Shown: positions 10,568-26,145 of the stretch, one piece after another | How the letters are laid out: each line of letters begins with the position of its first letter | Numbering within the stretch: the first letter of the stretch is position 1 | Source: Curtobacterium sp. MCJR17_055 | GTDB lineage: Bacteria; Actinomycetota; Actinomycetes; Actinomycetales; Microbacteriaceae | DNA: 64,000 bases | NCBI RefSeq assembly: GCF_003224335.1 | Contig: NZ_QKLF01000005.1 | Coordinates: forward strand, 62,001-126,000 | Reading direction: 5' to 3' | Position numbers and translations under genes: made by a program | The notes under the pieces: generated by a model | What the model was told of the DNA's origin: nothing | Database searches by the model: none | Seen by the model: only the letters and a program-made list of their open reading frames with translations

Positions 10568-10622
10568 TCGTCCTCCGGCACCGGCCGGCTCGGACGGCAC
10601 CGGCGGACGAGGACCCGCGCCG

Positions 10623-11060
10623 TCAGCGGCGGACGAGCACCGTACCGGCAGCGCCGTCGTGGAGCGGACGGCCGTCCTTCGCGTGGATGAGCGCCGGGAC
10701 GACGATGCACAGCAGCACGGCGCGGACCGCCGGGCGCCAGACACCGACGTAGCCCCCGCGGATCGGCACCACGCGCAGCCCGACACAGAGGTGCCCGAAC
10801 GACCCCGACGCGAGCGCGATGAACAGGACCTGCAGCACGGCGAAGATGCCCAGCGTGATGAAGTTGCCCGCCGCGCCGTACGTGCCGATGACGAGGGAGA
10901 CGAGCGAGGCCAGCGCCCAGTCGATCACCAGCCCGAGGAACCGCCGGCCGAAGCTGCCCATGCTCCGCGGACCCGACTCCGGCAGCCCCAGGACCTTGCC
11001 CGGCCACTCGGTCCGACCGGAGCCGGCTGCGGGCGGGGTGGACGGAGTGGAGCGGGCCAT
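10623..11060 (-). CDS. RDD family membrane protein
   Basis: A 145-residue membrane protein with the Arg-Asp signature at the start of the first helix (FGRRFLGLVIDWALASLVSL). Three hydrophobic segments follow, and it ends with FGHLCVGLRVVPIRGG and a final helix. RDD proteins are proposed transporters or cation antiporters; this one has no assigned substrate. The position next to glnA1 is conserved in actinobacteria. It is divergent from glnA1 with 142 bp between the start codons. Confidence 0.85.
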   Translation of the reverse strand: MARSTPSTPPAAGSGRTEWPGKVLGLPESGPRSMGSFGRRFLGLVIDWALASLVSLVIGTYGAAGNFITLGIFAVLQVLFIALASGSFGHLCVGLRVVPIRGGYVGVWRPAVRAVLLCIVVPALIHAKDGRPLHDGAAGTVLVRR

Positions 11061-11202
11061 GTCCCCAGCGTAGGCGGTCGCCGGGTGCGTAACACGCTGG
11101 AAACAACGCAGTCACGTCCGGGAAACCCGGTGTCTCTAGCCTCGTCGGAGGGTGCCTCCTGGTTCCCTCGACACCACCCAACGCCACAGGAGACCGACTC
11201 GC

Positions 11203-12627
11203 ATGTTCAGTGATTCCTCCGAGGTGCTCGCGTTCATCAAGGACACGGACGTCAAGTTCCTCGACATCCGGTTCACGGACCTCCCCGGGGTCCAGCAGCA
11301 CTTCAACATCCCCGCATCAACGGTCGACGAGGACTTCTTCGCCGTCGGTCAGCTCTTCGACGGCTCCTCGATCCGCGGCTTCGCGTCGATCCACGAGTCG
11401 GACATGCAGCTCATCCCCGACGTGACGACCGCCTACGTGGATCCGTTCCGCGCGGAGCGCACGCTGATCATGGTGTTCGACATCTACAACCCGCGCAACG
11501 GCGAGATCTACGGCCGTGACCCGCGCCAGGTCGCCAAGAAGGCCGAGAAGTACCTCGCCTCGACCGGCATCGCGGACACGGCGTTCTTCGCCCCCGAGGC
11601 CGAGTTCTACATCTTCGACGACGTCCGCTACTCGGTCACGCAGAACGAGTCGTTCTTCTCCGTCGACTCGGAAGAGGGCGCGTGGAACACCGGCCGCGAG
11701 GAAGAGGGCGGCAACCTCGCCAACAAGACCCCGTACAAGGGCGGCTACTTCCCCGTCTCGCCGGTCGACAAGACGGCGGACCTGCGCGACGACATCTCGC
11801 TGAAGCTCATCGACGCCGGCCTCGAGCTCGAGCGCGCGCACCACGAGGTGGGCACCGGCGGCCAGCAGGAGATCAACTACAAGTTCGACACGCTGGTCCA
11901 CGCCGCGGACGACATCCTCAAGTTCAAGTACATCGTCAAGAACACGGCCGAGCAGTGGGGCAAGGTCGCCACGTTCATGCCGAAGCCCCTGTTCGGTGAC
12001 AACGGTTCGGGCATGCACACCCACCAGTCGCTCTGGTCGGACGGCACCCCGCTGTTCTACGACGAGAACGGCTACGGAGGCCTGTCCGACGTCGCGCGCT
12101 GGTACATCGGCGGCATCCTGCGGCACGCCCCGGCCCTGCTCGCCTTCACGAACCCGACGGTGAACTCGTACCACCGCCTGGTCCCGGGCTTCGAGGCCCC
12201 CGTCAACCTCGTCTACTCGGCGGGCAACCGTTCGGCTGCGATCCGCATCCCGATCACGGGCACGAACCCGAAGGCCAAGCGCATCGAGTTCCGCGCGCCC
12301 GACGCGTCCGGCAACCCGTACCTCGCCTTCGCCGCGCAGCTCATGGCCGGCCTCGACGGCATCCAGAACCGCATCGAGCCGCACGAGCCGGTCGACAAGG
12401 ACCTCTACGAGTTGCCGCCCGAGGAAGCCAAGAACATCCCCCAGGTCCCGGCCGGCCTGTCGCAGGCGCTCGACGCGCTCGAGGCGGACCACGAGTTCCT
12501 CACGAAGGGCAACGTCTTCACCGAGGACCTCATCCAGACCTGGATCGACTACAAGCGTGAGAAGGAGATCCTCCCCCTCGCGCAGCGTCCCCACCCGTTC
12601 GAGTACGAGCTGTACTTCGGCGTCTGA
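11203..12627 (+). CDS. glnA: Glutamine synthetase type I (adenylylated form)
   Basis: This 474-residue GSI-beta enzyme condenses ammonia and glutamate using ATP. Seen motifs include the N-terminal [16 protein letters not shown], the glutamate-binding [16 protein letters not shown], the [12 protein letters not shown] loop, and NRSAAIRIP. The adenylylation tyrosine lies in [10 protein letters not shown] near the C-terminus, so activity should be switched by GlnE, whose gene lies about 5 kb downstream. The ATG at 11203 has a clear CAGGAGA ribosome site; an in-frame GTG upstream does not. A very strong terminator follows. Confidence 0.96.
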
Positions 12628-12641
12628 GTTCCGCACACGAG

Positions 12642-12675
12642 GAAGGGCCCCGCACCGTCAGGTGCGGGGCCCTTC
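12642..12675 (+). terminator. Terminator after glnA
   Basis: A perfect 15-bp stem (GAAGGGCCCCGCACC at 12642-12656, complement at 12661-12675) with a GTCA tetraloop begins 15 bp after the glnA stop. Confidence 0.85.
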
Positions 12676-12892
12676 GTCGCGTGCGCGTCCGCAGAGCAGG
12701 GAGCCGTCCCCTGCGCCGAAGCGACAGATGGCGGCCGTACTTCCCCGCCGATCTGTCGCTTCCGCGGCGGGACCGCCGTGCGCGTCCGCCTGGAGGCCCG
12801 GTGGCGGCCCGGCGGACCGGCACCGGGCCGCGCAGCGCAGCGCAGCGCAGCGCACCGCACTGCGCTGCGCTGCGCTGCGCCACGGCAGACGA
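12676..12892. repeat. Two further large inverted repeats in the glnA-ugd gap
   Basis: This non-coding stretch between convergent genes holds two palindromes besides the terminators. The first has 12-bp perfect arms at 12718-12729 and 12751-12762 (GAAGCGACAGAT), extended by inner GGCGG/CCGCC arms. The second has 20-bp perfect arms at 12835-12854 and 12861-12880 built from repeats of GCGCA, with a 6-nt loop. No ORF with coding character is visible. The elements could be REP-like repeats, transcript-stabilising structures or simple-sequence expansions. Confidence 0.6.
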
Positions 12893-12943: not shown

Positions 12944-14362
12944 TCAGCGCGCGGTCACCAGCGCGTCCGTCACACCGGCTGCGACGCTCGTGGCCGGTGC
13001 AGCGGCCGGGCTCGGTCGGCCGAGGGAGCGGACGGTCCAGCCCGCCCCGACCCACCGTGCGGCCGGGAGGCAGTTGCGCGCGTCGATCACGACCCGCTGA
13101 CCGACGAGGGCGGCGAGGGCGACCGGGTCGGCCTCGACGACCTCGTCCCACTCCGTGAGGACGAGCACGAGGTCGGCGCCCTCGATGGCCTCCGTCATCG
13201 ATCCGGCGTACGTGAGGGTCGGGAACGAGCGCCGTGCCGTCTCCATCGCCTCGGGGTCCCACAGCGTCACCTGGGCGCCGCGGAGGTGCAGCGCCGCCGC
13301 GACGTTGAGCGCCGGCGAGTCCCGGACGTCGTCGGTCATGGGCTTGAAGGCCGCTCCGACGACGGCGATCCGGCGGTTGAGCACCGATCCCCCGGCGGAC
13401 TCGATCGCCATGTCGATGACCCGCTGGCGCTGGCCCATGTTGATCTCGTCGACCTGCTGCATGAGCCCGACGACCCGCCCGGCGCCGAGTTCGGCCGCGC
13501 GGTGCATGAGCGCCCGGATGTCCTTCGGCAGGCACCCGCCCCCGAATCCGAGACCGGCGTTGAGGAACTTCCGGCCGATGCGGGCGTCGTGCCCGAGGGC
13601 GTCCGCGAGCGTCGAGACGTCCGCGCCCGTGATCGCGCACATCTCCGAGATCGCGTTGATGAACGAGATCTTCGTCGCGAGGAACGCGTTCGCGCTCACC
13701 TTCACGAGCTCGGCGGTGGCGAGGTCGGTCGTGATGACCGGGGTCCCCTCGCTGATCGGGGCGGCGTACACCTCGCGGATCACCGCGTCCGCCGCCTCCG
13801 ACGCACCGCCCCAGACCAAGCGGTCCGGGTGGAGCGTGTCCTCGACGGCCTTGCCCTCGCGCAGGAACTCGGGGTTCCAGACGAGTTCGGCGTCGATGCC
13901 GGCGGGCGTGAACTCGCTGACGATGCCGCGGAGGCGCGCTGCCGTCCCGACCGGGACCGTGGACTTGCCGACGATGAGCCCCGGGTGGGTGAGGTGCTCG
14001 GCGACACCGCGGGTGGCGGCCTCCACGTAGGACAGGTTCGCGGCGTACGACCCGGCCTTCTGCGGTGTCCCGACGCAGACGAAGTGCACGTCGGCCGCAG
14101 CGACCGCTTCCGAGATCGAGGAGGTGAAGCGGAGCCGCCCGGTGGCGACGTGCTTCGTGATGAGTTCGGGCAGTCCGGGCTCGTAGAACGGCACCTGCCC
14201 GGCCGACAGGGCCGCGAGCTTCGCCGGGTCGACGTCCACGCCGATGGTCTCGAAGCCCATCTCGGCCATGGCGGCGGCGTGCGTGGCACCGAGGTAGCCG
14301 GTGCCGATGACGCTGATGACGGGAGCGGGGCGGGCGTGGTCCCGGGATGGCGATGTGGTCAC
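12944..14362 (-). CDS. ugd: UDP-glucose 6-dehydrogenase
   Basis: This 472-residue NAD-dependent enzyme makes UDP-glucuronate by double oxidation of UDP-glucose. The Rossmann motif VIGTGYLGATHAAAMAEMG lies at residues 17-35. The catalytic cysteine is in GFGGGCLPKD, and the central WNPEFLREGKAVEDTLHPDR matches the UDP-GlcDH signature. Residues 1-15 and the last 25 are variable. The GTG start overlaps the stop of the upstream GH26 gene (GTGA), so translation is probably coupled. Placed with a GT2 synthase, it points to a glucuronate-containing surface polymer. UDP-ManNAc dehydrogenase is an alternative with the same fold. Confidence 0.9.
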   Translation of the reverse strand: MTTSPSRDHARPAPVISVIGTGYLGATHAAAMAEMGFETIGVDVDPAKLAALSAGQVPFYEPGLPELITKHVATGRLRFTSSISEAVAAADVHFVCVGTPQKAGSYAANLSYVEAATRGVAEHLTHPGLIVGKSTVPVGTAARLRGIVSEFTPAGIDAELVWNPEFLREGKAVEDTLHPDRLVWGGASEAADAVIREVYAAPISEGTPVITTDLATAELVKVSANAFLATKISFINAISEMCAITGADVSTLADALGHDARIGRKFLNAGLGFGGGCLPKDIRALMHRAAELGAGRVVGLMQQVDEINMGQRQRVIDMAIESAGGSVLNRRIAVVGAAFKPMTDDVRDSPALNVAAALHLRGAQVTLWDPEAMETARRSFPTLTYAGSMTEAIEGADLVLVLTEWDEVVEADPVALAALVGQRVVIDARNCLPAARWVGAGWTVRSLGRPSPAAAPATSVAAGVTDALVTAR

Positions 14363-15903
14363 TTCTTGACCTCCTGCAGGTCGTAGTCGATGTCGTTCCG
14401 GGCGATGCCGGCCGCGAAGGCCGCCATGCTGTCGGCCCGGGAGTTGAGTCGCCAGTCGTTCGTCGTGCGGGCACCGTCGACGATGGTGGTGGCGGTCTCG
14501 CTGAAGTACGCGAAGCCGATGACGTCGGCGTTCGCCGGGTCGGCGAGGGCGTCGAAGAGCGAGGTGATCCAGCGCGCCTTCTGGCCGTCCGTGACCGTGG
14601 CACCGGTCTCGGTCGCGCCGATCTCGCTGAGCAGGATCCGCTTCTCGGGCGCGATCTGCCGGAGCTGCTCGATGGTCTTCGCGAAGGTGGTGTCGAACGT
14701 CGGCGCCTCGGCCGCCTTCCGGTAGTAGCCGCTCATGCCGACCCAGTCGACGTAGTCGTCACCCGGGTAGTACGCCTTCAGGTAGTCGAGCGTCTGGTAC
14801 TTCGGGTTGCCCAGGGCGTCGATGCGCGTCGGCGACCAGTTCCAGATGACGTAGTCGTTCGCGCCGGCACGGTCGAAGACGTCGTGCACGTGCTGCCACA
14901 TCGCGACGAACGAACCCGGTGCGTTCTGCTGGACGGTGCCGTCGGCCCAGTTGTACCAGCTGCCGTTCATCTCGTGGTCGAGCCGGATGACGACGGGCTG
15001 GCCGTTCGTCACGAGGGCCTCGGCGTACTGCGTCAGGTAGCGGTCGAACGCCCCGCCGGTGACGTCGGCGTTCGTGTAGCCGGGCACGTACTTCTGGTCG
15101 TTGCCGGTCTTCAACGGACGGCTCTCCCAGGTGAGCATCGGGACGCGCCCGTTCGTCCAGGAGCGCTGGACGGCGTCGGCGTTGAAGTCCTGGTCGAAGC
15201 CCTGGAAGTAGCCGACCATGTTCGTGGCGGTACCGACCTGCTGGGACACCTGGTCGTACTCCGCCCAGTTGAAGGGCGACTGCGCCGTGTACAGGCCGTA
15301 CCAGCGGGACTGCTGTGCGAGCACCTCGGCCTTGGTCGGGACGTCGACGGGGACCGCGGGGTCCGGGTCCGTCGACGGGCCGTCCTTGCCGGGTACGACG
15401 GTCGGACCGCCGCCCTGCCCGGACGCTCCCGATCCGGACCCCGATCCGGACCCGGACCCGGAGCTGCCGGCGTGGCCGCCGGAGGCCGACGTGCCGGAGG
15501 AGGACGAGACTCCCGAGGAGTGGTGCGCTCCGGACGCCGACCGGGCGTGCGCGAGTTGCGACCGCAGGTCCGCGATCTGGCCCTTGAGCTGCGTGAGCTG
15601 GTCGCCGCGGGAGCCGGCCTGCGCCGTGGTGCTCTGCAGCTTGCCCTCGAGCTTCCAGATCCGCTCCTGGGCTGCGGTGAGCTTCGCTTCGAGCGCCTCG
15701 GCGTCCGCCGGTTGCTCCTGCTTGGTCGGGACGCCGAGCGCTCGGCTGACGGCCGAGGAGACCGGCCCGGAGGGTGAGATCCACACCGACCAGGTGATGA
15801 GCGAGAGGACGGCGACGATGGCCGCCATGCCGACGGCGGTGCGCTTGGCGTGTCGGGTCGAGGGTGCCCACCAGGTGCCGGTGGAGCGAGGGAGATCAGA
15901 CAA
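14359..15903 (-). CDS. Membrane-tethered GH26-type glycoside hydrolase with coiled coil
   Basis: A 514-residue protein. One membrane helix (residues 22-44) is followed by a coiled coil (about 66-115), a Gly/Ser linker (about 125-165, GSGSGSGSGSG) and a GH26-like barrel from about 190. The two catalytic glutamates are visible in RLDHEMNGSWYNW (acid/base) and LLSEIGATE (nucleophile). GH26 members cleave beta-mannans or related beta-1,3/1,4-glucans. Here the enzyme is anchored on the outer face of the membrane and may trim or terminate the polymer made by the neighbouring synthase. The start is TTG at 15903, with GGAGG 9 nt upstream and an 8-bp overlap with the GT2 gene. Confidence 0.87.
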   Translation of the reverse strand: MSDLPRSTGTWWAPSTRHAKRTAVGMAAIVAVLSLITWSVWISPSGPVSSAVSRALGVPTKQEQPADAEALEAKLTAAQERIWKLEGKLQSTTAQAGSRGDQLTQLKGQIADLRSQLAHARSASGAHHSSGVSSSSGTSASGGHAGSSGSGSGSGSGSGASGQGGGPTVVPGKDGPSTDPDPAVPVDVPTKAEVLAQQSRWYGLYTAQSPFNWAEYDQVSQQVGTATNMVGYFQGFDQDFNADAVQRSWTNGRVPMLTWESRPLKTGNDQKYVPGYTNADVTGGAFDRYLTQYAEALVTNGQPVVIRLDHEMNGSWYNWADGTVQQNAPGSFVAMWQHVHDVFDRAGANDYVIWNWSPTRIDALGNPKYQTLDYLKAYYPGDDYVDWVGMSGYYRKAAEAPTFDTTFAKTIEQLRQIAPEKRILLSEIGATETGATVTDGQKARWITSLFDALADPANADVIGFAYFSETATTIVDGARTTNDWRLNSRADSMAAFAAGIARNDIDYDLQEVKK

Positions 15904-17470
15904 TGAGGAACGCCTCCAGAGCGAAGACCGCGATCCCGATCACGTAGGGGATCGACGCGTAGGGGTTGAGACGACGGGGACGGGAGGGTTTCGGGGCGCG
16001 CTGTGCCTGTCGCTCGGTCGCGGTCGCGACGTCGCGGCGGGTGGCGAGGACGGTCGTGGTGGAGGCCGTGGTGGCGTCCGGACCGAAGATCTCGTCGAAC
16101 GCGCGGTCGACGGCGGCCTGCTCGTCCGTGCCGCCGACGGGGGCGGACGGGTCGTGGTCGACCGGACTTCCCGGGACGGCCGCGGCGCGGGGCTGCGGCT
16201 GCGCCGGGTCCTCCTCGACCGGACCGCCGGCGTAGGCACCGGCACGGGTCCCCCAACCGCTCGCGTGGGCGAGACGGAAGAACCCGATGAGGCGGATCGG
16301 CATGAGGAAGAACGTCGAGACGATGATGAACATCGGCAGGCGGAAGAAGTCGGAGGGCTTCTCGGCCAGGTGCCGCATCTGCCGGATCGCCATGCTCAGC
16401 ACGCTCGAGACGACCATGAGCCCCGCCACGTAGACGAACCCCGTCGAGAAGCCGTACTGGTGCAGGATCCCCTCGTACAGGTTCTGACCCTGCCCGGTGA
16501 GCGCCCGGTAGACCCACCCGGCGATCACGCCGAAGAGCATGAACGGCAGGATGATGTCGGTCAGGAAGAACAGGGCGAGGACCGGCGCGTGGCCGAGCAT
16601 CCAGGGCAGCATCCGCAGCGTGTTGTACTGCGACCCGCGGGCCCAACGGAGCTGCTGCTTGAACAGCTTCTTCACCTGCAGCGGGGCGTCCGTGTACACG
16701 AGCGACGTGTACTGGTAGACGGTCCGGTAGCCCTCCTTGAGCGTCAGGTTCGTGAGCGTCCGGTCGTCGGACACCTCGAGGAATACGCCCATGAACTCCT
16801 CGTGCATGAACTTGTCCATCACACGGACGAGGATGCTGCGGCGGAACGCGATCGTGCGACCGGGCAGGCAGCCGATCTGCCCGAGCACGCTCTGCGCGGG
16901 CATCGAGTACAGCGCGCGGGAGTTCTCGAGCCAGTCCGCCCAGCGGGTGATCCACGAGCGGGTCGGCTCGAGGATGCGCTGGCGGGTGGTGACGCCGCCG
17001 ACCGACTCGTCCGCGAACGGCCGGAGGAGTTCGACGAGGGTGCCGGGCGTCCAGACGGTGTCGGAGTCGACGAGCACCGTGATGTCGCCGGTGGACATCT
17101 CGGTGCCGACCTTGACGGCGTTGCGCTTGCCGGGGATCGGCGTGTGGGTCCAGCGGACCAGCGGCGCGAACTCGTCGCAGACCGCTTCGAGTGCCTCGTT
17201 CCGGGCGCCGTTGATGACGACGATGATCTCGCCGGGACGCTGCTCGACCATGCGGCCGATGACGTCACGGAACAGGTCGAGCGGCTCGTCCACGACGGGG
17301 ACGACCACGCTGGTCGTCCCGGTGTACGTGCCGGTGAAGGGGCGGTACCGGGCGGAGAGGACGACCTTGAGCAACCAGAGCAACCAGATCACCAGTGAGT
17401 ACACGGTGAAGAGGTAGAACTCGGGGTGGCCGTCGACCATCTGCCGGATCTGGAGGATGAAGGTGAACAT
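15896..17470 (-). CDS. Processive family 2 glycosyltransferase (hyaluronan/cellulose synthase-like)
   Basis: A 524-residue membrane glycosyltransferase. An N-terminal helix (about 20-38) precedes a GT-A domain beginning TSVVVPVVDEPLDLF. The metal-binding DSD motif is in ITVLVDSDTVWTPG, and the QxxRW signature of processive synthases is in KQQLRWARGSQYN. Several membrane helices follow, then a long low-complexity cytosolic segment (about 410-495) and a final helix. Together with ugd this suggests polymerisation of a GlcA-containing chain, as in hyaluronan synthases, but the product is not readable. The ATG at 17470 has CAGGGA upstream. The frame is open for 89 more codons, but that sequence has no family similarity. 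Confidence 0.88.
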   Translation of the reverse strand: MFTFILQIRQMVDGHPEFYLFTVYSLVIWLLWLLKVVLSARYRPFTGTYTGTTSVVVPVVDEPLDLFRDVIGRMVEQRPGEIIVVINGARNEALEAVCDEFAPLVRWTHTPIPGKRNAVKVGTEMSTGDITVLVDSDTVWTPGTLVELLRPFADESVGGVTTRQRILEPTRSWITRWADWLENSRALYSMPAQSVLGQIGCLPGRTIAFRRSILVRVMDKFMHEEFMGVFLEVSDDRTLTNLTLKEGYRTVYQYTSLVYTDAPLQVKKLFKQQLRWARGSQYNTLRMLPWMLGHAPVLALFFLTDIILPFMLFGVIAGWVYRALTGQGQNLYEGILHQYGFSTGFVYVAGLMVVSSVLSMAIRQMRHLAEKPSDFFRLPMFIIVSTFFLMPIRLIGFFRLAHASGWGTRAGAYAGGPVEEDPAQPQPRAAAVPGSPVDHDPSAPVGGTDEQAAVDRAFDEIFGPDATTASTTTVLATRRDVATATERQAQRAPKPSRPRRLNPYASIPYVIGIAVFALEAFLIV

Positions 17471-17983
17471 CGATCCCTGCTGCAACGTTCGAAGGGGAGA
17501 TTCCGCGCCATCGGGAAATCGGGGGTCGGTTCGGGTGTCCTCATTCAGACAGAACGCAGACGCGCCGCGCAACGTGCCCCTCGGCCGGGGGTGACGGCGT
17601 TGTGCCCCGGGGTACACCGGCGTCCACTGCACGCCGGACAGGCCGTGTCCGCACTGGTGCTGACAGCAGTTCCGTGGACCGGTCCCACGGCTCGCGGCCC
17701 GGCCGTCGACGGGGAGTCCGGCCGGGAGGCCCGGCACCAGCAGACGAGGAACCCCCGGTCAGCAGGCACATCGGCAGTGACCGCCGACAGCCGTTCCGGC
17801 GTGGGCCGCGCGTGTTCCGAAACCCTGGTCGCACGCTGACAGCGGTACCGCGGCTGAACCGAACGGGGTACGGTATTCCATCACTCGGGGTACGGCGGCG
17901 GCGTCGTGGAAATTGCGGAAGACAACTCGCGCTCCTCCGCCCGAACGGAGCACCCCGGGCGTGTCGCGCGGCCCGCCGGGTGT
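17471..17983 (-). promoter_or_regulatory. 513-bp regulatory region of the exopolysaccharide locus with paired CGGGGTACGG sites
   Basis: No gene is visible between the GT2 start and the glnE stop. The sequence CGGGGTACGG occurs twice, at 17864-17873 and 17886-17895, exactly 22 bp apart (two helical turns). A related GGGGTAC lies at 17609-17615. This fits a dimeric activator or repressor site about 400 bp ahead of the GT2 start, leaving room for a long untranslated leader. No -10/-35 pair is assigned with confidence. Confidence 0.45.
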
Positions 17984-20959
17984 TCAGGTGCCGTAGAACT
18001 CGCGTTCGAACACCTGTCGCGCGCGACGCGTCACGGCGAGGTAGTCCTCCTCGAGCTGCGACGCCGAGCCCGGCGGGTACTCCAGCAGACGCGCGATCCC
18101 CTCGAGCTGCGTGCGTTCGACCGGCAGGACGTCGGTCGTGCGGCCGGACCAGAGCACGAGCGCGCTCCTCGTGCGCGAGGCGAACCGCCAGGCGGCCGCG
18201 AGCTTCTCGGCGTCCTCCGCGGTGACCCAACCGGCGTCCGTCGCGGCGTCGAGGGCCTCGAGCGTCGAGGTGGTCCGGAGCGACGGCTGCGCACGCCCGT
18301 GCTGCAGCTGCAGGAGTTGCACGAACCACTCGACGTCGCTGAGGGAACCACGTCCGAGCTTGAGGTGCCGTGCGGGGTCGGCTCCGCGCGGCAACCGCTC
18401 CGACTCGACGCGGGCCTTGATGCGCCGGACCTCACGGACCTCGCGCTCCTCGATCGACTCCGGGTACCGCGTTCGGTCGGCGAGGTGCTCGAAGTCGCGG
18501 AGGAGCTGCGGGTCCCCCACCGCACCGCGGGCCCGCAGCAGGGCCTGGGCCTCCCACGTGAGCGACCAGCGGGCGTAGTACGCGGCGTAGGAGTCGAACG
18601 AGCGCACGACCGGGCCGTTCCCGCCCTCCGGCCGCAGCCCGATGTCGAGCTCGAAGGGGTGCAGGGCGTCCTCGGTCAACCGGTTCAGTTCGCGCACGAC
18701 CACCTGCGCCGCCCGCGACGCGACCTCGTTCGGCACCGTCTCGGACCGGTACACGAACAGGACGTCCGCGTCGGACCCGAACCCGAGCTCGCGGCCGCCG
18801 TACCGCCCCATCGCGATGACGCCGAACTCCAGGCCCTCCGGGGCGTCCCGACGGGCCAGGTCGAGTGCGCCGCTCAGCGTCGCCTCCGTCACGTCGCTCA
18901 GCGCAGGACCGAGCCCGTCGACGTCGAGGTGCCCGAGCACCGCCGCCATGCCCAGGCGCAGCGTCTCCCGCCGACGGACGCTGCGCAGGAGGGCCGCCGC
19001 CGTGTCCACGGCGTCGCCGTGACGGGCGGTCGTCGCTCCGGTCTCCGCGAGCAGGGCCGGCAGCGGTCGGGGGCGCAGCAGGGTCTCCGGCTCGTCGAGC
19101 CAGGCGACGGCCTCCGGGAAGCGCTCGAGCAGTCCGGACAGGAACGCCGACTCCGACAGCACCGTCGTGAGGCTGTGCGCGGCACCCGAGGAGTCGCGGA
19201 GCATCCGGAGGAACCAGCTCGACTCCCCCAGGGTGTCGCTCAGTCGCCGGAAGGCCAGGAGGGCGCGGTCCGGTGCCGGTCCCTCCGCCATCCACCGCAG
19301 GAGCACCGGCAGCAGGTTCCGCTGGATGGCCGCACGGCGCGAGGTCCCCTGCGTCAGGGCACGGATGTGGGCGACGGCGCCGTCCGGGTCGAGGAACCCG
19401 ATCGCGGTCAGGCGGTCGCGGACCTGTCCGCTCGTCAGGACGATCTCACCGTCGGTCGCCGCCACCGCCGAGAGCATCGGCCGGTAGAAGAGCCGCTCGT
19501 GCAGCCCCCGCACCTCGAGCTTCACCGATCGCCAGCGGTCCTGCAGCGCCGACGCCGAGGACGCCAGCCGCGTCGACCGGGCGAGCACCCGGAGTTCGTC
19601 CTCGTTGCTCGGCATGAGGTGCGTCCGCTGCAGCCGTCGGAGCTGGATGTGGTGCTCGAGCACCCGGAGCAGGGCGTAGTCCGGCCCGAACCGAGCCGCT
19701 TCGGGACGTCCGACGTAGCCCGCGGCCGCCAGGGCGTCCATGGCCTCGAGCGTGGACCGGCCCCGCACGGACTCGTCGTCCCGGCCGTGCACGAGTTGGA
19801 GCAGCTGCACCGTGAACTCGACGTCGCGCAGGCCACCCGGGCCGAGCTTCAGCTGGCGGTCCACCTGACCGTCCGGGATGTGCGCGGTGACCCGCTCCCG
19901 CATCCGCTGAACGGACTCGACGAACCCGGGGCGCTTCGACGACTCCCACACGAAGGGCGCCACCGCGGCGACGTACCGCTCCCCCAGGTCGATCGACCCG
20001 GCGATCGCCCGCGCCTTGAGCAGCGCCTGGAACTCCCACCCCTTCGCCCACCGCTCGTAGTAGGCCACGTGGGACTCCAGCGTCCGGACGAGCGCGCCGT
20101 CCTTGCCCTCCGGGCGGAGGTTCGCGTCGACCTCCCACAGCGCGGGCTCCGCGGCGAGGTCGGTGATGACGTGCGTGGCCGCGATCGCGAGGCGGGTCGC
20201 GATGAGGACCGCGCGGTCGGTCCCGATCGACGGCGCGTCGTCGCCCTCCGCCGGCTCGGTCGGTTCGGTGACGTAGATGACGTCCACGTCGCTGACGTAG
20301 TTCAGCTCGCGGGCGCCCGCCTTGCCCATCGCGATGACCGCGAGGGGGGTCGCGGCGACCTCGGCGGCGGGGAACGGGACCTCGCGACGGGCCACGGCGA
20401 CCGCGACGTCGAGCGCGGCGCCGGCCAGGTCGGCGAGCCCGGCTGCCACGGCCGGGAACGCCTCGGTCGGCACCGGGTGCAGGACGTCGAACAGGGCGAT
20501 CTGGGCGAGGTGCCGGCGGTAGCGGACCCGGAGGCGGCGGCGCGCGGTCTCGCCCGAGCTGCCGTCGACGGCCTCGGCCAGGGAGGCCGTGTAACGCTCC
20601 TGGGACTGCGGCGGGGTGACCGGGTCGAGCAGCAGCGTCAGTTCCTCCGGGCGTCGCTGCAGGAACTCGGCGAGGCCGATCGAGGAGCCGAGCAGCCGGA
20701 CCAGACGCTCGGTGGCGGCCGGGTCGGCGAGGACGGGACGCAGCCGGTCCGGAACCGCCTCGACCAGACGCTCGATCGCGAGCAGGGCACCGTCCGGGTC
20801 CGCGGTGGCGGCCCAGACGGACTCGGCATCCGCGATCGGGACACGGGGGTCCGACGCGGGGCGGGCCTCCAGGGCGCCGATCCGCTCGAGCGTGCCGGAC
20901 AGGTCGGCGAAGCCGAGCCGCGCCAGCTGTGACCGCGACGTCGCCGTCCTGCCCGTCAT
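17984..20959 (-). CDS. glnE: Bifunctional glutamine synthetase adenylyltransferase/deadenylylase
   Basis: A 991-residue enzyme that adds AMP to, and removes it from, the regulatory tyrosine of GlnA. It has two nucleotidyltransferase domains, seen as LNYVSDVDVIYV in the N-terminal half (deadenylylase) and GRELGFGSDADVLFVYRSE in the C-terminal half (adenylyltransferase). Each is followed by its helical partner, with LGPGGLRDVEFTVQLLQL and LGRGSLSDVEWFVQLLQL as matching repeats. Full family length, no defect seen. It lies 34 bp downstream of glnA2 on the same strand. Confidence 0.96.
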   Translation of the reverse strand: MTGRTATSRSQLARLGFADLSGTLERIGALEARPASDPRVPIADAESVWAATADPDGALLAIERLVEAVPDRLRPVLADPAATERLVRLLGSSIGLAEFLQRRPEELTLLLDPVTPPQSQERYTASLAEAVDGSSGETARRRLRVRYRRHLAQIALFDVLHPVPTEAFPAVAAGLADLAGAALDVAVAVARREVPFPAAEVAATPLAVIAMGKAGARELNYVSDVDVIYVTEPTEPAEGDDAPSIGTDRAVLIATRLAIAATHVITDLAAEPALWEVDANLRPEGKDGALVRTLESHVAYYERWAKGWEFQALLKARAIAGSIDLGERYVAAVAPFVWESSKRPGFVESVQRMRERVTAHIPDGQVDRQLKLGPGGLRDVEFTVQLLQLVHGRDDESVRGRSTLEAMDALAAAGYVGRPEAARFGPDYALLRVLEHHIQLRRLQRTHLMPSNEDELRVLARSTRLASSASALQDRWRSVKLEVRGLHERLFYRPMLSAVAATDGEIVLTSGQVRDRLTAIGFLDPDGAVAHIRALTQGTSRRAAIQRNLLPVLLRWMAEGPAPDRALLAFRRLSDTLGESSWFLRMLRDSSGAAHSLTTVLSESAFLSGLLERFPEAVAWLDEPETLLRPRPLPALLAETGATTARHGDAVDTAAALLRSVRRRETLRLGMAAVLGHLDVDGLGPALSDVTEATLSGALDLARRDAPEGLEFGVIAMGRYGGRELGFGSDADVLFVYRSETVPNEVASRAAQVVVRELNRLTEDALHPFELDIGLRPEGGNGPVVRSFDSYAAYYARWSLTWEAQALLRARGAVGDPQLLRDFEHLADRTRYPESIEEREVREVRRIKARVESERLPRGADPARHLKLGRGSLSDVEWFVQLLQLQHGRAQPSLRTTSTLEALDAATDAGWVTAEDAEKLAAAWRFASRTRSALVLWSGRTTDVLPVERTQLEGIARLLEYPPGSASQLEEDYLAVTRRARQVFEREFYGT

Positions 20960-25771: not shown

Positions 25772-26145
25772 GGAGCGAACGGGTCGGTGAGACGGTCGCG
25801 TCACTCCCCCGGGAGTGCCGAGGAACGTCCGGGCTCCACAGAGCAGGGCGGTGGGTAACACCCACCCGGAGCAATCCGCGAGACAGTGCCACAGAAAGCA
25901 GACCGCCGGCGGCGACGTCGGTAAGGGTGAAACGGTGGTGTAAGAGACCACCAGGGGTCCGGGTGACCGGATCCGCTCGGTAAACCTCGCCCGGAGCAAG
26001 GTCAGACAGAGGACGTCGAGGCTGCTCGCCGAGTCCTCGGGTGGACCGCTGGAGGCCGACGGCAACGTCGGTCCGAGAGAGATGGCCGTCACCGCGGCGG
26101 AAGTCGCGGGACAGAACCCGGCGTACGGCCGGCCCGTTCGCCTCG
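25772..26145 (+). ncRNA. rnpB: RNase P RNA, bacterial type A
   Basis: The catalytic RNA that trims tRNA 5' ends. Recognised elements in order: GAGGAACGTCCGGGCTCC, the P4 5' strand and CR-I region; ACAGAAAGCAGACCGCC; GGTAAGGGTGAAACGGTG followed by GTAAGAGACCACCAG; and the closing GACAGAACCCGGCGTAC. The P1 helix is formed by GCGAACGGG (25775-25783) and its complement CCCGTTCGC (26133-26141), which sets the ends to within a few bases. A perfect terminator follows. Confidence 0.95.

Follow-up and report, generated by a model that had tools for sequence, protein, structure and literature searches.

Within a stretch of 64,000 nucleotides from the leaf-and-soil bacterium Curtobacterium sp. MCJR17_055 (assembly GCF_003224335.1, contig NZ_QKLF01000005.1, positions 62,001 to 126,000 of the forward strand), here called the window, we analysed a locus of three genes coding for a GT2 glycosyltransferase, a GH26 glycoside hydrolase and a UDP-glucose 6-dehydrogenase (ugd). 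The three open reading frames (ORFs) are all open in the window and lie on the minus strand in the order GT2-GH26-ugd. An overlap of 8 bp joins GT2 to GH26 (15896-15903) and one of 4 bp, GTGA, joins GH26 to ugd (14359-14362); the initial annotation had described a GT2, a tethered GH26 and ugd as one coupled unit, and both overlaps can be read in the sequence. The Pfam families found were Glyco_tranf_2_3 (GT2), Glyco_hydro_26 (GH26) and UDPG_MGDP_dh (ugd). Judged by its gene content, the locus is very probably an exopolysaccharide cassette, with the following features:

15896-17470, minus strand: GT2, putative processive synthase of 524 aa, with a transmembrane segment, the GT domain, further hydrophobic helices, a variable linker and a C-terminal hydrophobic helix
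GT2 motif residues, from alignment: D61, D135-S-D137-T, D235-D236-R and Q272-Q-L-R-W276
14359-15903, minus strand: GH26, predicted membrane-tethered and lichenase-like protein of 514 aa with a TTG start (Pfam, structure model)
15778-15858, minus strand: N-terminal helix of GH26 (residues 16-42), presumed membrane anchor (hydrophobic sequence and model of moderate predicted local distance difference test score, pLDDT)
15529-15702, minus strand: helical, coiled-coil-like stalk of GH26, residues 68-125, followed by a Ser/Gly linker (model)
14371-15342, minus strand: catalytic barrel of GH26, residues about 188-511 (model and alignment)
14971-14973 and 14623-14625, minus strand: putative catalytic pair of GH26, E311 and E427, by alignment to CtLic26A
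14719-14721, minus strand: R395 of GH26, invariant among the aligned cassettes that bear ugd
12944-14362, minus strand: ugd, UDP-glucose 6-dehydrogenase of 472 aa (Pfam, TIGR03026)

The GT2 protein carries the D, DxD, (D)D and QxxRW motifs of the processive synthase class that includes hyaluronan synthases and NodC. The residues D61, D135, D137, D235, D236, Q272, Q273, R275 and W276 were invariant in 19/19 and 33/33 aligned rows. The alignments used here were built from loci chosen by hand for spread, A1 and A2 from 18 of 33 fetched loci, A3 from 36 of 75 named relatives and A4 from 32 of 80, one locus with a masked stretch (L155) being left out of A3 and A4. In a profile search the best solved relatives of GT2 were hyaluronan synthases (1.4e-19), and by sequence it resembles the class of these enzymes and NodC. 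The scores against models of defined function stayed under their curated cut-offs, with 109.7 bits for NodC (TIGR04242, cut-off 550) and 54.3 bits for the poly-N-acetylglucosamine synthase PgaC/IcaA (TIGR03937, cut-off 422.3). No PilZ domain was found in GT2 with Pfam, and the cellulose synthase model was not among its NCBIfam matches. The structure model of GT2 shows long helices after the GT domain, but its mean pLDDT of 58.2 was too poor for a fold search.

The GH26 protein scored 48.5 bits against PF02156 (cut-off 20.2). Its structure model contains a helix at residues 16-42 (moderate confidence), helices at 68-91 and 96-125, a disordered linker at 127-179 with pLDDT under 50, and a confident barrel from about residue 188, an arrangement that fits a tether, a coiled-coil-like stalk and a catalytic domain. 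A profile search gave 1.6e-44 for CtLic26A, a lichenase of Clostridium thermocellum, and about 4e-12 for the best mannanase entries. The comparison of the model with the PDB, which covers the top 1000 chains from Foldseek, gave the same picture: a Z of 32.8, a root-mean-square deviation (rmsd) of 1.9-2.1 and 27% identity (VIA-align) with CtLic26A, against a Z of 26.0 with AlXyn26A and of at most 25.3 with mannanases (rmsd 3.6). By sequence and predicted fold, this GH26 is nearer to the lichenase CtLic26A than to mannanases or xylanases.

E311 and E427 were invariant in 37/37 and 19/19 rows and align with Glu residues of CtLic26A that we take to be catalytic. A further residue, R395, lies two positions after Y393 and was invariant in 37/37 rows of A3 and in 17/19 of A2; the two deviating rows (L041 and L042) come from cassettes without an adjacent ugd, and both also differ at R485. 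CtLic26A and the free-standing GH26 of another locus (L054) have GYNW at the R395 site and keep an arginine at the position of R485. The location of R395 near the active-site tyrosine offers a lead for uronate recognition, and its correlation with ugd is likewise a lead only, because it is based on two divergent rows. GH26 matches outside the cassettes were at most 40% identical in the draw of Microbacteriaceae genomes. The genome of MCJR17_055 itself has a second, free-standing GH26 gene of 408 aa on contig C5 (L002), unlike that of the cassette.

The ugd product has three UDPG_MGDP_dh domains and scored 419.5 bits with TIGR03026 (cut-off 189.8); with the TuaD model NF047673 it reached 402.4 bits, under the curated cut-off of 700.

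To see how widely the unit is kept, we retrieved 33 loci whose GT2 is orthologous to that of the window (BLAST identity 56-92%). GH26 adjoins GT2 in all 33, and ugd comes next in 31; the two loci without an adjacent ugd, L041 and L042, are the most divergent cassettes of the set, and each of these genomes has a relative of ugd at another place (54% and 60%). In L042 an acyltransferase with an SGNH domain (10613-12727 of that locus) lies next to the divergent GT2-GH26 pair and may O-acylate the polymer of that pair. Across 80 named loci, GH26 was seen in 78 and ugd in 74, and the 2 misses of GH26 and 6 of ugd all lie at most 2.8 kb from a contig end. All 51 Microbacteriaceae genomes with a GT2 orthologue have a GH26 match beside it. 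The coupling recurs as well: the 4-bp overlap of GH26 and ugd is present in several Curtobacterium loci, and the GT2 stop codon and GH26 start overlap by 8 bp in 66 of 75 named relatives (TTG in 59, ATG in 7). In the other nine, seven have TTG at the same place and a GT2 match without a stop codon, one overlaps by 14 bp and one is unclear. The shared position is partly built into this count, because the GH26 start was taken as the one nearest to the GT2 end; the start site is supported by the seven loci with ATG there. The nearest named locus is that of Curtobacterium sp. MCBD17_032 (GT2 97% identical), in a listing that may omit the record of our own genome. Of 36 Curtobacterium genomes, our own included, 35 match most or much of GT2, one of these (G026) in pieces; in the other (G009) a contig ends after glnE and the first 20 residues of GT2. 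A further genus-mate (G221) is without the cassette and has a related cassette with beta-helix proteins, described below. The cassette is thus real and widely conserved; no description of it was recognised among the papers listed in searches of open-licence literature, judged by titles and the opening of abstracts.

The unit lies between glnA1 and glnE, as the initial annotation had placed it, and both flanks were confirmed with Pfam and NCBIfam:

11152-12627, plus strand: glnA1 (start possibly at 11203)
17471-17983, minus strand: intergenic region of 513 bp between glnE and GT2, candidate control region with three GTACCCCG sites
17984-20959, minus strand: glnE (PRK14109, 1207.8 bits, cut-off 625)

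Between ugd and glnA1, at about 12830-12880 of the window, GCGCA-type repeats face their own reverse complement and form a long GC-rich palindrome.

To evaluate whether the cassette had been inserted between these flanks, as was first suggested, we compared the gene order in other Microbacteriaceae. The orthologue is present in 51 of 299 genomes of the family, our own included, which rules out presence throughout the family and shows that the order is not universal; at an E value of 1e-40, 70 of 299 match GT2, counting a class of 30-35% identity. As cassette-negative genomes we took members of the family draw outside this list of 70 and examined 60. In 51 of them glnE and glnA1 lie on one contig, always convergent, with a gap of less than 500 bp in 33, of 0.5-5 kb in 12 and of more than 5 kb in 6; in the remaining nine the genes lie on different contigs (6) or one of them has no match (3). 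The junction is therefore often closed, in keeping with an insertion. The order glnE-GT2-GH26-ugd-glnA1 is, however, common to 16 genera, with an additional small ORF ahead of glnA1 in a few, and GT2 and glnE vary in step in their pairwise identities (r = 0.86 in 23 genomes, the pairs not being independent). On these results, together with the survey of closed junctions, a recent or local event was rejected as unsupported, and we regard the insertion as old. The corresponding correlations with glnE in the same genomes, subject to the same dependence, are 0.81 for GH26, 0.79 for ugd and only 0.42 for glnA1. Both flanks were found in 54 of the 80 named loci and glnE alone in three, two of which lack sequence; the third (L149, Schumannella soli) has no glnA1 within 10 kb. 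The cassette-free junctions of ten genomes (L183, L184, L189, L190, L195, L200, L203, L205, L212 and L213) hold 1.5 to 15 kb of other sequence with long ORFs, and this junction may be a general insertion site.

The cassette is also found away from these flanks and beyond the family. No glnE is near it in seven Leifsonia loci, in Amnibacterium, Pseudactinotalea and Xylanimonas, or in all Cellulomonas loci, eleven in number, but L157, which is without upstream sequence. Curtobacterium sp. TC1 (L043) has another complete GT2-GH26-ugd cassette, on a plasmid of 164 kb (NZ_CP081962.1). Full cassettes occur in other families too, in Cellulomonas and Pseudactinotalea; an order-wide draw gave a GT2 orthologue in 6 of 247 other genomes (three in family f14, two in f9 and one in f5), and a phylum-wide draw gave none in 395 other genomes, four of which had matches of 32-37%. 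The GT2s of f9 and f14 are 67-71% identical to that of the window, and those of Microbacteriaceae loci away from Curtobacterium and the genus g25 are 70-73% identical. For glnE, one other genome each of f9 and f14 (G043 and G048) gave 53% and 52%, compared with 46-66% within Microbacteriaceae. In the GT2 tree, from which a fragment (L053) was left out, a pair from f14, genus g362, nests inside Microbacteriaceae (95*; by a quick method, and with two long outgroup branches that meet). The cassette has moved between families.

The presence of the cassette on a glnE tree of 79 rows (without L051, which lies at a contig end) needs at least 13 changes, 9 of them forced by starred branches, versus about 20 in shuffles. 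This clustered yet patchy presence points to descent mixed with losses or regains. An alternative history, compatible with the function favoured below, is repeated gain at glnE/glnA1 as a mobile island instead of inheritance and loss. The number of changes needed on the tree would fit it, as would the plasmid copy, the 18 of 51 cassette-free junctions with at least 0.5 kb of other sequence, and some branches, L032 for example, on which the trees of GT2 and glnE disagree. However, several clades recur in both trees, the identities of the two genes correlate and presence is more clustered than in the shuffles, and we consider repeated gain a doubtful account of the distribution.

The gap between glnE and GT2 contains three GTACCCCG sites in one orientation (17886-17893, 17864-17871 and 17608-17615); the whole window has 5 matches versus 2.2 expected. 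In the 80 loci, the 600 bp upstream of GT2 contain GTACCCCG 89 times in all (11 in reverse), chiefly around −144 and from −340 to −440; the other 1.52 Mb has it 36 times (27 in reverse). Related loci are not independent in this count. It is present in 50/58 glnE-GT2 gaps and absent from 20/22 loci without glnE. Its distribution makes it a plausible candidate site for a regulator. A box resembling GTAAC-n6-GTAAC, seen by eye in some relatives, is absent from the window and was dropped. Scans for sigma-70-type promoters and for terminators gave no hit of either kind, where chance alone would give 0.2 and 1.2, respectively. Since Rfam gave no match at the locus and RNAalifold, run on the GT2 leader of 16 Curtobacterium rows, found 0/34 pairs with a two-sided, pair-keeping change, we rejected a structured leader and claim no structured RNA. 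The sole Rfam match in the window is the RNase P RNA class A at 25780-26140.

Taken together, these data make it reasonably probable that the locus is a three-gene, synthase-dependent exopolysaccharide cassette whose product is a beta-polymer containing glucuronate (GlcA), which GH26 trims or releases. What we infer for activity, substrates, export, linkage and release runs as follows. The ugd product would supply UDP-GlcA, and the membrane GT2 would polymerise it with a second UDP-sugar, UDP-Glc or UDP-GlcNAc, while pushing the chain out through its own channel; because it would translocate the chain in this way in a single-membrane cell, no separate exporter would be needed. On the outer face, where one transmembrane helix and a helical stalk would hold it, GH26 would cut the emerging chain and thereby set its length or release the polymer. 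That GH26 acts on the product of GT2 is likely; equally likely, and with good grounds in the linkage to ugd, is that the polymer contains GlcA. As for the linkage type, the likeliest polymer would alternate beta-1,3 and beta-1,4 links, like hyaluronan or cellobiuronan, because GH26 is nearer to the beta-1,3;1,4-glucanase CtLic26A than to mannanases; a lichenase-like cutter beside a hyaluronan-synthase-like maker suggests such an alternation, which we put forward tentatively.

Several observations weigh against this proposal. The product class of GT2 stays wide, given NodC and PgaC scores far below the curated cut-offs, and its poor model gives no view of a channel or of export. The lichenase likeness of GH26 rests on 27% identity, and the enzyme could serve another glycan. 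Another gene of the genome also exceeds the PF03721 cut-off, and the absence of an adjacent ugd from the most divergent cassettes, L041 and L042, suggests that GlcA need not belong to every product. In a competing explanation, GT2 makes a neutral beta-1,3;1,4-glucan, or a cello- or chito-type chain, from UDP-Glc or UDP-GlcNAc, GH26 is a true lichenase, and ugd is just carried along and serves other envelope glycans, such as a teichuronic-type polymer. Such a product would suit the nearness of GH26 to a mixed-linkage glucanase, the two cassettes without adjacent ugd, and the fact that, among equivalog models, ugd scores best with TuaD, if below its cut-off; a mixed-linkage glucan synthase is also known from a Gram-positive, as given in the part of PMC10374906 used here. 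However, ugd is next in line in 31/33 and 74/80 loci, overlaps GH26 by 4 bp in several Curtobacterium loci and accompanies GT2 and GH26 in Cellulomonas and Pseudactinotalea too. GT2 matches hyaluronan synthases, the cellulose synthase model is not listed for it, and no PilZ domain was found in it, unlike in the Romboutsia enzyme. We therefore consider a neutral glucan unlikely. Less likely still is that GH26 is a surface-displayed enzyme degrading plant or fungal polysaccharides beside coincidental neighbours: the consulted portions of a Curtobacterium genome paper (PMC8565777) and of a Cellulomonas paper (PMC3544764) file the family under other plant polysaccharides and mannan degradation, respectively, possibly for other GH26 genes, but this GH26 is coupled by overlap, is found with the synthase in every readable case, is nearer to lichenase than to mannanases, and differs from GH26s outside cassettes in the Microbacteriaceae draw.

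If the locus makes a glucuronate-containing exopolysaccharide, it would name an undescribed surface polymer common to many Micrococcales, with a three-gene handle to make or remove it; the named loci include Curtobacterium, Leifsonia, Frigoribacterium, Salinibacterium and Cellulomonas. It would also mean that a GH26 gene in such genomes may serve exopolysaccharide synthesis and not the breakdown of plant polysaccharides, under which surveys file the family in the text of PMC8565777 and PMC3544764 used here, a caution relevant to inferring the traits of litter and soil bacteria.

The cassette had first been described as an unusual minimal system, and comparison with known systems upholds this for the tethered GH26; a synthase and ugd in one gene unit already have precedents in hasAB and the type 3 pneumococcal capsule, and by gene content the cassette belongs with these minimal systems. 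In the type 3 capsule, according to the part of PMC3182177 used here, ugd and one synthase (wchE/cps3S) are the essential genes, and no tethered GH26 is described in that part; the order here is synthase-GH26-ugd, and the likeness is one of gene content. In hasABC, HasA alone polymerises and secretes the chain and hasB codes for the UDP-Glc dehydrogenase (PMC4443731, in the portion used). Solved hyaluronan synthases are the nearest structures to GT2 by sequence, with moderate similarity, and the presence of GH26 sets our cassette apart. A glycanase beside a synthase has a precedent in the clostridial cellulose system ccsZABHI, in which a beta-glycanase encoded with the synthase is proposed to release the chain (PMC7710045, as far as the consulted text goes); a GH5 and O-acetylation genes occur there, GH26 and ugd here, and the GT2 class differs. 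As for the enzyme itself, CtLic26A is the closest to GH26 in sequence and fold, with aligned catalytic Glu positions, but the two differ by their low identity, and the membrane anchor, the stalk and R395 belong to the cassette GH26, with GYNW in CtLic26A.

A further comparison is with 20 sister loci from several Actinomycetota families (L052, L055-L058 and L064-L077 among them), whose GT2s are 29-35% identical to that of the window. These resemble our cassette in their GT2 and, in many cases, in having ugd (in 12/20 with an identity of at least 40%, several loci ending early), but GH26 was found in 0/20 and two beta-helix proteins replace it, both kinds being present in 19/20 (with queries from L056 and some matches down to 26%). 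The GT2 of L056 also has hyaluronan synthases as its best matches. The larger beta-helix protein of L056 matched the poly-mannuronate C5-epimerase AlgE4 at 4e-5; it also gave a weak match to AlgG, along with NosD and general beta-helix models. It is possible, judging from these matches, that the sister cassettes are Gram-positive uronan epimerase systems, and the seeming pairing of one synthase stock with alternative tailoring enzymes favours a uronate polymer in both cassette types. A bolder extension, which we regard as rather unlikely, is that the cassette GH26s form a biosynthetic branch hydrolysing an acidic, GlcA-containing polymer of beta-1,3;1,4 type, with Arg395, beside the active-site tyrosine, reading the carboxylate, and that both cassette types belong to a modular class of Gram-positive uronan machines in Actinomycetota in which a GT2 stock and ugd are paired with a tethered GH26 for cutting or with AlgE-like beta-helix proteins for epimerising. 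If the uronate reading is true, GH26 would gain a new substrate class, and the system would be a Gram-positive counterpart of alginate-type tailoring.

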